Shown one piece after another: positions 16,566-63,899 of a DNA stretch of 64,000 nt. The DNA comes from Alicyclobacillus hesperidum (GTDB lineage Bacteria > Bacillota > Bacilli > Alicyclobacillales > Alicyclobacillaceae). The number at the start of each line of letters is the position of its first letter. Position 1 is the first letter of the stretch. The position numbers were made by a program, and so were the translations under genes. Under the pieces are notes generated by a model. That model worked only from the letters and a program-made list of their open reading frames with translations, was not told the origin of the DNA and made no database searches. The stretch covers positions 1 to 64,000 of the forward strand of contig NZ_FNOJ01000009.1 of the NCBI RefSeq assembly GCF_900107035.1, written 5' to 3'.

Positions 16566-17045
16566 TCAGAGCGACACGTGTTCCAGTAGCGCCTTAGCTA
16601 CGCGCGGCGTGACAAATTGGGAGACGTCGCCGCCGTGCAATGCGACATCTTTAACCAACGAAGAACTGACAAACCCATAGACCGAAGAAGTTGGTATGAA
16701 TACGATCCGCAGGTCTTCAGCCAGCGACCGATTGACGTGTGCCATCGCCAGCTCCGCTTGGAAGTCCAATTCATTGCGGACACCGCGGACGACACATGCG
16801 AACGATTCCCGCCGATAATAATCTACGAGCAAACCCTCGAAGGAATCCACGCGAACATTGTCTATTGAAGAAACCGCGTCGCGGATCAGATCCATACGCG
16901 TCGCCACATCGAACCATGGCCGTTTGTTCGGATTGTGCAGCACGCTGACAACCAATTCATCAAACAAGGTCGCGGCCTGTACAACCACATCCAAGTGGCC
17001 GCGTGTAAACGGATCAAAGGTACCTGGGTACACCGCCTTACGCAT
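16566..17045 (-). CDS. coaD: Phosphopantetheine adenylyltransferase
   Basis: CoaD joins ATP and 4'-phosphopantetheine to dephospho-CoA, the penultimate step of CoA synthesis. The nucleotidyltransferase motif TRGH (T/HxGH type) is at residues 14-17 in AVYPGTFDPFTRGH, and the C-terminal YGFVSSSLVKDVA carries the second nucleotide-binding signature. I place the start at the ATG at 17045 (159 residues), with AAAGGGG at proper distance, rather than earlier ATGs. It overlaps the rsmD stop by 8 bases. coaBC in the same window encodes the previous steps. Confidence 0.96.
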   Translation of the reverse strand: MRKAVYPGTFDPFTRGHLDVVVQAATLFDELVVSVLHNPNKRPWFDVATRMDLIRDAVSSIDNVRVDSFEGLLVDYYRRESFACVVRGVRNELDFQAELAMAHVNRSLAEDLRIVFIPTSSVYGFVSSSLVKDVALHGGDVSQFVTPRVAKALLEHVSL

Positions 17046-17631
17046 GGTCATCCCCTTTATCCCTGTTGCCAAGGACAGGTTCATACAGAGCGATGGCAAT
17101 GTCGCCATACACCCTATACTTCACCTTGGCAAAATCGTTGATTACGTCCGGCAGTTCCATCTCCTTAGGAAGTTCACAGACAACGCCACCGATGATGCGA
17201 TCCGCCGGCAAAGCCTCTAAAACCGGCTGCCATAGGCGCTCTGCATATGGCGGATCGACAAATACATACGCCAAGGTGTCGCCCATGTTGTACAACTGCT
17301 CGATAGCTTGCCGCCAGTGCGATTGCCATAGTTCAGCTTGTGCAAGACCTTGCACTCGCATCAGATTGTCGCGAATCGTCCGCAAGGCCCGGCCGTCGCG
17401 ATCGACAAAGATGGCTCGCTCTGCCCCCCGGCTCAAAGCCTCAATCCCCAATGCACCAGAGCCGGCAAACAAATCGACCACAACCCCCGAAAGGCTGTGC
17501 GGAATTAAATTGAACATCGACTCCTTTACCCTGTCGGTCGTCGGCCTCGTCGCCGCCCCTTTGGGCGCAACTAAAGGCATACTTCTCCACTTTCCTGCGA
17601 TCACGCGCACTTGCCGAGCACCACCTGTCAC
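17038..17631 (-). CDS. rsmD: 16S rRNA (guanine966-N2)-methyltransferase
   Basis: RsmD methylates G966 of 16S rRNA in the assembled 30S. The 197-residue product has the N-terminal RVIAGKWRS, the SAM-binding VVDLFAGSGALGIEALSRGA and the catalytic motif FVDPPYA. The open frame starts at the GTG at 17631; a GTG at 17610 (before RVIAGKWRS) has a better AGGTGG ribosome binding site, so the true protein may be 7 residues shorter. It is the first gene of the rsmD-coaD-patatin-yceD-rpmF operon. Confidence 0.93.
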   Translation of the reverse strand: MTGGARQVRVIAGKWRSMPLVAPKGAATRPTTDRVKESMFNLIPHSLSGVVVDLFAGSGALGIEALSRGAERAIFVDRDGRALRTIRDNLMRVQGLAQAELWQSHWRQAIEQLYNMGDTLAYVFVDPPYAERLWQPVLEALPADRIIGGVVCELPKEMELPDVINDFAKVKYRVYGDIAIALYEPVLGNRDKGDDHA

Positions 17632-17718
17632 CGCAATGACGGCTCTCCAACCATATGTGTACGTTCAAAGTACCATATCCGTTTGTCGGCACCAAATCCT
17701 GCAGCGATACACCGCCTC

Positions 17719-17896
17719 TGGTATAACTTCCAATCGCGTGGTCGAGAATAGAAACATCAACGGCGACAGCTGTTGTAGGCAACCGTGTGCGAAGAGGCAA
17801 TCCCCATCCACTCTTCCTCCGGTTTCTCCTCTCCCAGAATGTGTCGGCTAGCCTGACACCAGAAAACCTCACGCGTACCCGGGCGTGAGGTTTTTC
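17719..17896 (+). ncRNA. Candidate small RNA, pyrimidine-rich
   Basis: The 367 bases between rsmD and the amidase contain no supportable gene. On the plus strand an extended -10 (TGGTATAAC, 17719-17727) could start a transcript near 17734, ending at the strong terminator at 17863-17895, about 160 nucleotides. Just before the terminator, 17804-17836 is almost pure pyrimidine and includes CCTCC and CTCCTCTCCC, complementary to Shine-Dalgarno sequences. This architecture resembles Gram-positive C-rich regulatory RNAs. No coding potential is seen. Alternatively the minus strand here holds a structured rsmD (ylbH) leader. Confidence 0.35.
17863..17895 (+). terminator. Orphan bidirectional terminator upstream of the amidase
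   Basis: Arms AAAACCTCACGC and GCGTGAGGTTTT (17863-17874, 17883-17894) pair perfectly over 12 bp with an 8-base loop and continue into TTTTTC on the plus strand. No annotated plus-strand gene lies upstream, so it must end an unannotated RNA or insulate the divergent region. Confidence 0.85.
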
Positions 17897-17944
17897 TGTT
17901 CCTGGGCACCATCGCCATCCCAGCCACCATCCCGGACGGCGTAG

Positions 17945-51651: not shown

Positions 51652-52750
51652 GTGTGAACCGCCCCTCCCTCACCTGGCTGATCATATCCATAAAGTTGTC
51701 AAACAGGTACCTTGCGTCGGTCGGGCCGGGACGCGACTCAGGGTGATACTGCACAGAGAACACCGGCTCCTGCTTGTGCGCCAATCCTTCGACCGTTCCG
51801 TCGTTCAAATTGACGTGCGTCAACTGTAAAGGCGTGCCTGCCAGCGAGTCCGCATCGACCATGTAGCCATGGTTTTGGGAAGTGATGTCGACGCGCCCTG
51901 TCCGCAAGTCTTTGACCGGATGGTTGGCCCCGCGATGACCAAATTTCATTTTTCGCGTTTTGGCACCGCACGCCAACGCAATTAACTGATGTCCCAAACA
52001 TATCCCAAAAATGGGGACACGACCGATGAGTTCACGTAACGTCGCAATGGCGAACGGCACGTCTTCCGGATTGCCAGGCCCATTGCTGAGCATGACACCG
52101 TGTGGATGCCAGGAGAGAACATCCGCCGCCGTCGACGTCGCAGGGACGACGATAACGTCACAACCGCGATCGAGCAAACTGCGCAAGATGCCTGCCTTCA
52201 TGCCGTAGTCAATGAGCACCACGCGGTGCCCTGGCCCCGGGCTGCGATACACGGTCTGCGTCGTCACGCGCTCTACCGCATCAGGCACCAACGCCTCTGG
52301 CATCCTCGCCAACAATTCGTCGACAGGCGCATCCTCTGTTGTAATGACCGCCCGCATCGCTCCAACCGTGCGAATGGCCTTGGTCAATTCGCGCGTATCG
52401 ATGCCCGCAATGCCAACGATGTTGTGCTGCTGGAGATACCTCTCCAGGCTGTCCGTCTGCTTGTAGTGCGATGGACTTTCCGCAAATGTCTTGACGACAA
52501 AGCCGCGTACATGCGGATGACGAGATTCCACGTCGTCGACGTTCACACCGTAATTGCCAATGAGCGGATATGTCATCGTCACGATTTGCCCGAAGTATGA
52601 TGGATCCGTAAGCACTTCCTGATAGCCCGTCATCCCCGTATTAAACACCACTTCACCAAAGCGCGTGCCCTCTGCACCGAAGTGCGTACCTTCAAACGCC
52701 AAGCCATTCTCCAAAATCAACCGCGCTATCGCGCGACCGTTCATCGTCAT
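51644..52750 (-). CDS. carA: Carbamoyl-phosphate synthase small subunit
   Basis: The 368-residue glutaminase subunit supplies ammonia to CarB. The class-I amidotransferase nucleophile is in GICLGHQL and the catalytic His-Glu pair is in [11 protein letters not shown]-terminal [21 protein letters not shown] is typical of CarA. The ATG at 52750 overlaps the pyrC stop (ATGA). It is followed by carB. Confidence 0.98.
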
Positions 52751-54036
52751 GACAACCGCTCCTCTCCCGCTTCATAGATCACTTGCCCTGCGCGAATGGT
52801 ACTTTTGATGACGCCTGCGATCCGCCAGTCGAGAAACGGAGTATTGCGTCCCTTCGTGTAGAACGAATCTCCGTCGATCGTCCGTTCCGCCTGTAAGTCG
52901 ACAATCGCGAAATCGGCACGCGCCCCTGGCCGAATAGAGCCACCGGCAAGGCCAAAGAGACGGGCCGGCCGAGACGTCATCCCTTCGATGATGCGCGTGA
53001 GCGGCACCGTGCCAGGAAGCACAAGATACGTGTAGAGGAGTGCGAACGCGGTTTCTAATCCCACCATGCCAAACGGTGCTGTCGCCATCGACTGGGCCTT
53101 CTCTGCTGGCGTGTGCGGCGCATGATCCGTCGCGATGATGTCGAGCGTACCGTCCAGAAACCCTTCGAGACACGCCTCGCGATCACGTTCGCTTTGCAAA
53201 GGCGGGTTGACTTTCCAATTTGCATCGTCGCGCTTAATCGCGGTTTCAGAAAGCAACAAGTGATGCGGCGTCACTTCAGCAGTGACGCGAATACCGCGCG
53301 CTTTTGCCCAGCGAATGACCGCCACTGACGGCTCTGTGCTGACATGGCAGACGTGTAAATGAGCACCTGTTTGTTCAGCGAGTAACACGTCCCGGGCAAT
53401 CATCGCGGCCTCCGCTTCAATCGGGATGCCAAGGAGTCCAAGGCGCCTGGCCGCGTTCGGATGCACTACGCCCTTTCCAGAAATCGTCTCATCCTCCGCA
53501 TGAATAATGGCCGGAGCCCCAAGTTCCTTTAAACGCAAGAACGCCTCGCGCATCCGTCCACCATGTTGAACGCCGCGCCCGTCGTCGGAAAAGCCCACCG
53601 CTCCAGCCGCACGCAATGCCTCGTAATCGGCCAACTCATCCCCAGCCTGGCCTTGTGTGATGCAGGCAATTGGATGTACCTCCGTTTTCCCGATGACTTT
53701 GGCGCGTTCAACGAGATCCGCAACGAGTTTTGGACTATCAATCGGCGGCTTGGTGTTTGGCATGCAGGCCACTTGCGTAAAACCTCCCGCTGCCGCAGCT
53801 TGCACACCAGTCTCCAAGGACTCCTTCGCCGTTAAACCGGGATCGCGCAAGTGCACGTGCATGTCGATGAACCCCGGAAACACTGCTTCACCACGCAGCT
53901 CGATGACCTTTTCGGCGCGAAGTCCTTGACCAAGTGCGACAATCTCGCCTGTCACATCGTCGAACGCGACACTCGTCTCGCGCAACTGGCCGCTTTCGGC
54001 GTCCCACAGGCGACCACCGTCGATTCGTACAATCAT
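52747..54036 (-). CDS. pyrC: Dihydroorotase
   Basis: Cyclises carbamoyl aspartate to dihydroorotate. The 429-residue type-I enzyme has the metal site FIDMHVHLRDPG near residue 55, CHVSTEPSV and the second metal segment IATDHAPHTPAEK. It belongs to the amidohydrolase superfamily. ATG overlaps the pyrB stop (ATGA). The gene is complete. Confidence 0.97.
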   Translation of the reverse strand: MIVRIDGGRLWDAESGQLRETSVAFDDVTGEIVALGQGLRAEKVIELRGEAVFPGFIDMHVHLRDPGLTAKESLETGVQAAAAGGFTQVACMPNTKPPIDSPKLVADLVERAKVIGKTEVHPIACITQGQAGDELADYEALRAAGAVGFSDDGRGVQHGGRMREAFLRLKELGAPAIIHAEDETISGKGVVHPNAARRLGLLGIPIEAEAAMIARDVLLAEQTGAHLHVCHVSTEPSVAVIRWAKARGIRVTAEVTPHHLLLSETAIKRDDANWKVNPPLQSERDREACLEGFLDGTLDIIATDHAPHTPAEKAQSMATAPFGMVGLETAFALLYTYLVLPGTVPLTRIIEGMTSRPARLFGLAGGSIRPGARADFAIVDLQAERTIDGDSFYTKGRNTPFLDWRIAGVIKSTIRAGQVIYEAGEERLS

Positions 54037-63119: not shown

Positions 63120-63899
63120 TTACGACTGGATGTGTTTGTGCATACGATTGATTGCGGCTTTTTCAAGCCGCGAGACCTGTGCCTGCGAGATGCCGATCTC
63201 GTCGGCCACCTCCATTTGCGTCTTACCCTCGTAAAAGCGCATGGAGAGAATCTTCTTTTCTCGGTCCGTCAATTTGTGCATCGCTTCGCGCAAGGCAATA
63301 CCTTCGACCCAAGAGCTATCCTTTTCTCGTTCATCATGAATTTGATCCATGACATAAATCGGATCGCCCCCGTCGTGATAAATAGGCTCAAACATCGAGA
63401 CCGGGTCCTGAATGGCATCCAAGGCAAAAACGACCTCCTCCTTTGGGAGGTCCATTTCCTTGGCGATCTCGACAATAGTCGGCTCACGCAGGTGTTTTGT
63501 GGTCAACATATCTCGTATTTGCAGAGCTTTATAGGCGATATCGCGCAGTGACCGACTGACGCGAATCGGGTTGTTGTCCCGCAGATAGCGACGAATTTCA
63601 CCGACAATCATCGGTACAGCGTAAGTGGAGAAACGCACGTTTTGGCTTAAGTCAAAATTATCGATTGCTTTCATGAGTCCGATGCAACCGACCTGAAATA
63701 GGTCGTCCACATATTCTCCGCGATTGTTAAACCGCTGGATGACGGAGAGAACCAAACGCAGATTGCCGTTCACCAATTTCTCACGTGCAGATAGATCGCC
63801 CGCCTGTAGTGAGGTGAACAATTCGCGCATCTGAGCATTGGTCAAAACGGGAAGTTGCGAGGTGTTGACGCCGCAGATCTCAACCTTGTTGCGTTTCAA
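63120..63899 (-). CDS. sigG: RNA polymerase sporulation sigma factor SigG
   Basis: Sigma-G directs late forespore gene expression. The 259-residue protein is very close to Bacillus subtilis SigG: KVEICGVNTSQLPVL at the N-terminus, region 2 with NLRLVLSVIQRFNNRGEYVDDLFQVG, region 3 and region 4 ending in EEIGISQAQVSRLEKAA-type helix-turn-helix. It starts with TTG at 63899 after GGGGGGA. sigE would be expected upstream, outside the window. Its SASP target is in the same window. Confidence 0.97.
   Translation of the reverse strand: MKRNKVEICGVNTSQLPVLTNAQMRELFTSLQAGDLSAREKLVNGNLRLVLSVIQRFNNRGEYVDDLFQVGCIGLMKAIDNFDLSQNVRFSTYAVPMIVGEIRRYLRDNNPIRVSRSLRDIAYKALQIRDMLTTKHLREPTIVEIAKEMDLPKEEVVFALDAIQDPVSMFEPIYHDGGDPIYVMDQIHDEREKDSSWVEGIALREAMHKLTDREKKILSMRFYEGKTQMEVADEIGISQAQVSRLEKAAINRMHKHIQS

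Follow-up and report, generated by a model that had tools for sequence, protein, structure and literature searches.

The C-rich single-stranded tracts of the small RNAs RoxS and FsrA act through mRNA pairing. CsfG has been grouped with these two RNAs (PMC8216469), and a common way of working has been proposed for the C-rich single-stranded regions of RoxS/RsaE and FsrA (PMC4409812, PMC8216469). As relayed in later papers (PMC3574147, PMC8216469, PMC9147052), Marchais et al. (2011) identified CsfG in Bacillus subtilis as a forespore small RNA encoded between ylbG and ylbH, and it is likewise annotated between these genes in B. licheniformis (PMC3871023), with a size of ~105–140 nt in the two species (PMC3574147, PMC3871023). 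Northern blotting in B. subtilis detected only the csfG strand and not the opposite one (PMC3574147).

The gap upstream of rsmD

The window analysed here is a stretch of 64,000 nucleotides from Alicyclobacillus hesperidum (NZ_FNOJ01000009.1, positions 1–64,000). It contains a gene-free gap of 367 bases between the start of rsmD (ylbH), a 16S rRNA methyltransferase gene in the open reading frame list (17038–17631, minus strand), and the start of a downstream amidase-like gene on the plus strand at ~18000. We conclude that the region 17755–17896 in this gap is almost certainly csfG, the previously known small RNA of spore-formers. The initial annotation had proposed a plus-strand RNA gene here, pointing to the empty gap and to an orphan plus-strand terminator; both are present, no plus-strand gene precedes the terminator, and the proposed RNA gene is borne out as csfG, with its own promoter, terminator and conserved C/U core. 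The previously unannotated gap is thereby resolved.

The gene and predicted transcript (17755–17896, plus strand; start ~17756, end ~17896) were delimited with a covariance model, Rfam family RF00516 and homologues, and the terminator and predicted size fit the ~105–140 nt range of CsfG. The gene is placed upstream of rsmD and transcribed away from it, as in most syntenic homologues, and the divergent rsmD was confirmed by tblastn in the loci of other genera and outside the class. Of 61 related genomes searched with the gap sequence, 55 have homologues, the best matches falling inside 17758–17895; in its own genome the gap sequence matched one place only.

At gathering cut-offs, an Rfam search returned no match at the csfG region. 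A permissive search matched RF00516, 'ylbH leader', to 17787–17902 (E = 4.2 × 10−5, 32.2 bits), so that the family named for checking in the initial annotation does match, but on the minus strand and short of its gathering cut-off of 50 bits. Default annotation misses csfG here because the score lies below this cut-off. RF00516 also matched in B. subtilis in a genome-scale search. RF00516 and csfG are one element on opposite strands: reverse complementation turns the csfG core into the RF00516 consensus GGGAGAGGAGAAACCGGAGGAAG and the csfG terminator into the 5′ A run and hairpin of RF00516. The two differ in that Rfam classes RF00516 as a cis-regulatory leader for ylbH. This comparison shows that the 'ylbH leader' is csfG read from the wrong strand, and for this reason automatic annotation misses csfG or labels it a leader.

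Fold, conservation and strand

Conservation was assessed in an alignment of 40 homologues from the family and the order, a comparison that the initial annotation had recommended. The C/U-rich core UUUCUCCUCUCCC (17823–17835, plus strand) is invariant in all 40 sequences, as is CGGTTTCTCCTCTCCCAG; the terminator loop ACCCGGGCG is conserved, and the terminator stem covaries. The intrinsic terminator hairpin with its U run (17864–17895, plus strand) has the arms AAACCTCACGC (17864–17874) and GCGTGAGGTTT (17883–17893) around the loop GTACCCGG, with a T run at 17891–17895. Its loop CGUACCCGGG is conserved within the order, and compensatory changes were found in 8 of 11 stem pairs in the 40-sequence alignment and in 11 of 11 in the family model. 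A simple scan for terminators found one in the region, compared with 1.3 in shuffles, which is not above chance, so support for the terminator comes from conservation and covariation. The initial annotation had placed a C/U stretch directly before this hairpin; the stretch is present, with CCTCC at 17816–17820 and CTCCTCTCCC at 17826–17835 on the plus strand, but a small second hairpin (~17841–17859) lies between it and the terminator stem.

Upstream of the core, the predicted fold has a 5′ hairpin, P1 (CAACGGC-GACA-GCTGTTG; 17758–17775, plus strand), which covaries, 7 of 7 pairs varying on both sides across the family, and a helix, P2 (AACCG/CGGTT and GAAGAG/CTCTTC, loop ATCCCCATCC; 17781–17824, plus strand). 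In the family covariance model, the inner helix of P2 covaries in 9 of 9 pairs and the outer helix is conserved, being too invariant for covariation, and the core is unpaired except for its first two bases. P2 was resolved by means of a hand-written structure on one family, extended with a covariance model. RNAalifold on a plain MAFFT alignment, in which two families were misaligned, gave no P2. The second family of the order (loci L041–L050) has different P1 and P2 (GCGACG.../AGAGAGAG...), with the core and terminator loop unchanged, and its CsfG provides a ready-made comparison for telling which parts are important.

For the plus strand, a covariance model (R1) was built from 22 Alicyclobacillaceae sequences including the window's own, and its match at 17755–17902 on the plus strand is therefore by construction. 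In other families, R1 recovers the loci that are positive for RF00516 (E ~ 1 × 10−20), on the strand opposite to RF00516. In a 55-sequence R1 alignment, 92.4% of cells were paired compared with 70.6% in shuffles and ≤50% in slid controls, and there were 291 double-change cells compared with 73 in shuffles, though both counts lean towards R1 because the alignment was fitted to it. Folding energy alone cannot pick the strand, because the plus strand (z = −3.6) and the minus strand (z = −3.65) both beat shuffles. The plus-strand fold has 90 G-U cells and 45 A-C cells; the latter would be G-U on the minus strand, yet they are rarer, in line with the plus strand being the RNA.

The Rfam name suggests that the element is instead a 5′ leader of rsmD on the minus strand, an orphan riboswitch, as RF00516 is drawn on that strand and matches it. 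We consider this highly improbable, given that the B. subtilis Northern sees the opposite strand only (PMC3574147), that the U run lies 3′ of the hairpin when read on the plus strand and the G-U bias is 90 vs 45, that a forespore promoter is directed into the element, that a putative rsmD promoter block (~17669–17679) lies between csfG and rsmD, and that the minus-strand reading frame is not kept (distances modulo 3: 11, 10, 5). When a leader role in the rsmD mRNA was tested by sequence, the terminator, promoter and G-U bias were all found on the plus strand. The frame of a small minus-strand open reading frame, ATGGGG after GGAGG, is not conserved. A small-protein gene or dual-function RNA on the csfG element has a vanishingly small likelihood in our judgement: some members have short open frames of 20–47 codons, but these are not kept among relatives, many members have none, and the indels are not multiples of three.

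The conserved block at 17669–17679 has the plus-strand consensus A.t.Ta.CAca and resembles an extended −10 on the minus strand. It looks like the rsmD promoter, in which case rsmD transcripts would start in the gap and exclude the csfG region.

Promoter type and phylogenetic range

The motif that the initial annotation read as an extended −10, TGGTATAAC (~17719–17727), is present, but the GTATA within it (17721–17725, plus strand) was reassigned as the −35 box of a sigma-F/sigma-G-type (forespore) promoter on the basis of conservation. In the alignment of relatives, GTATA is followed after 14–16 bases by G...A...T, at a nearly fixed distance to the core, and this arrangement occurs in 87 of 101 syntenic homologues with rsmD nearby, compared with 0.7 expected from dinucleotide shuffles. 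The predicted promoter in the window (17721–17749) consists of GTATA, 15 nt and the −10 box GTCGAGAAT (17741–17749, plus strand), the latter placed by alignment. The B. subtilis consensus is GTATA and GGNAANAMTR for sigma-F and GNATA and CAWAMTA for sigma-G (PMC3416734), and the spacer of sigma-F promoters is usually 15 nt (PMC5942855), as it is here. We infer that the csfG promoter is of the forespore type and not a sigma-A extended −10.

The genome encodes both sigma-F (351.7 bits, curated cut-off 321) and sigma-G (499.9 bits, curated cut-off 457), the latter within the window (63129–63890, minus strand). Across the class sample, the core was found in 101 of 151 genomes, all 101 of which were sigma-G-positive, and in none of the 38 sigma-G-negative genomes (Fisher p = 1.6 × 10−25, only indicative because the genomes are related). 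The cross-tabulations of core and sigma-G, here and in the phylum sample, were compiled by hand from match lists. Twelve sigma-G genomes of the class sample are without the exact core, one of which (G163) keeps an RF00516 match, and CsfG is therefore dispensable for some sporulators. A forespore-only action may be too narrow a reading, because CsfG has been reported outside sporulation too in B. subtilis (PMC8216469, PMC4409812).

We also assessed the range of the core beyond the class. The exact 18-mer occurs in many Bacillaceae, Paenibacillaceae, Thermoactinomycetaceae and Alicyclobacillaceae. Unexpectedly, it also occurs in records with the titles Clostridia, Syntrophomonadaceae, Dethiobacter, Peptococcaceae and Thermoanaerobacterales, as well as in the isolate Fuchsiella alkaliacetigena. 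The 19-mer TCCGGTTTCTCCTCTCCCA was found in 126 of 398 genomes of the phylum sample (120 of 382 outside the class), usually once each, while the reversed 19-mer gave no match in the same sample, and 125 of the 126 core-positive genomes were sigma-G-positive. Among 64 loci inspected outside the class, rsmD was found in 59 and was divergent within 500 bases in 57, and a strict sigma-F/G consensus was found in 53, compared with 1.0 in shuffles. These loci are without the 5′ hairpin of the bacilli. Many retain a helix, GAAGAGCTTA/TAAGCTCTTC, enclosing the loop CCCTCCCCCA, and a terminal hairpin 3′ of the core. Metagenome-assembled records titled Acetobacteraceae and Desulfovibrio (L132, L133) also carry csfG beside rsmD and are probably mis-binned or mis-titled.

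An ancient origin of CsfG as a forespore RNA throughout the phylum, beyond the bacilli, is a serious possibility that we place just short of probable. Our literature search for CsfG in Clostridia, or for its family range, found no statement; csfG itself is already known, and what may be new is its phylum-wide extent. If the phylum-wide spread is true and unreported, CsfG would rank among the most deeply conserved trans-acting small RNAs known, and its core would be held nearly fixed by its partner. A core found phylum-wide, nearly always in the same genetic place and with a forespore promoter, provides a deep alignment for seeking this partner.

Proposed mode of action and comparison with known systems

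The comparative data establish the gene, strand, fold, promoter type and restriction to sigma-G genomes, and forespore control of CsfG has been established by others in B. subtilis. In sporulating cells, csfG would be transcribed inside the forespore by RNA polymerase carrying sigma-F and later sigma-G, yielding a transcript of ~140 nt (~17756 to ~17896). This RNA would fold into the 5′ hairpin, a second helix with C-rich loops and a mostly single-stranded UUUCUCCUCUCCC, followed in its 3′ part by the small hairpin and the terminator with its conserved C-rich loop. The core, the loop AUCCCCAUCC and the terminator loop would pair with the purine-rich Shine-Dalgarno regions of forespore mRNAs, and pairing would either stop translation or leave the mRNA open to degradation. 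By analogy with the C-rich RNAs described above, pairing with Shine-Dalgarno sequences is the likeliest mechanism, and we regard it as probable.

We think it unlikely that CsfG mainly binds Hfq or some other conserved RNA-binding protein through its pyrimidine tract and serves as a sponge or scaffold in place of mRNA pairing. The C-rich tracts of RoxS and FsrA act by mRNA pairing, which argues against such a role, and no protein has been demonstrated to require the core. In its favour, the 17-nt tract is near-invariant across the phylum, more so than variable targets seem to need, and in B. subtilis CsfG and Hfq co-precipitate (PMC3574147).

Pairing with 16S rRNA is a further alternative, to which we give very little weight. 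CUUCCUCCGGUUU is complementary to AAACCGGAGGAAG near position 1171 of the Bacillus 16S rRNA, and CTTCCTCCGGTTT (csfG 17811–17825) is exactly complementary to AAACCGGAGGAAG at ~1171–1183 of the 16S rRNA, for which a Priestia copy was used as the genome's own assembly is without a 16S gene. None of 1000 dinucleotide shuffles reached this exact 13-nt complement (p < 0.001), but the match was noticed post hoc, and it is lost in 63 of the 232 family loci (32 with CUUCG, others with UCUUCCGG) with no known compensating rRNA change. The invariant core moreover covers only the CGGUUU of the match, and its CUUC part is explained by P2.

A 2025 paper states that CsfG regulates mRNAs, citing only the 2011 paper (PMC12456014), and no target was reported in the publications on CsfG that we found. 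A genus-wide search for GGAGAGGAG before ATG yielded surE and carA. The carA (pyrAA) site (52748–52767, minus strand) is conserved throughout the genus, but it overlaps the preceding coding sequence, read as the end of pyrC, which may explain the conservation, and carA is not a convincing target. In seven Alicyclobacillus genomes (L206 G000:C10:54203, L213–L217) GGCAGGAGAGGAGACATT stands before the start of surE, a weak lead; this is a plain Shine-Dalgarno site whose ordinary conservation accounts for it, and surE is likewise not convincing. When GGAGAGGAGAA was searched before ATG in 151 genomes, no gene family was common to the lineages, the sole match being that of two generic ABC ATPases to one another. 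As these searches for long complementarity gave no cross-family target, the mode of action stays a proposal. Upstream of the pyrimidine genes, the window also contains a PyrR binding site (RF00515; 55561–55678, minus strand) at 55.7 bits, barely above its cut-off.

The core, the terminator loop of the order and the CsfG-less sporulating lineages each give a prediction testable in B. subtilis. Compared with RoxS/RsaE and FsrA, csfG shares C-rich regions within single-stranded stretches but is a distinct gene; theirs are under ResDE/SsrAB and Fur and have known mRNA targets, and the sole homology test against them, the Rfam search, gave no RsaE match in the window. Compared with B. subtilis CsfG, the RNA of the window is alike in its place beside rsmD/ylbH, its relative strand, its C-rich single-stranded tracts, its sigma-F/G-type promoter, its terminator and its exact core. 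It is unlike it in that the Alicyclobacillaceae 5′ hairpin and terminator loop are lineage-specific and in that its Rfam score lies under the cut-off.
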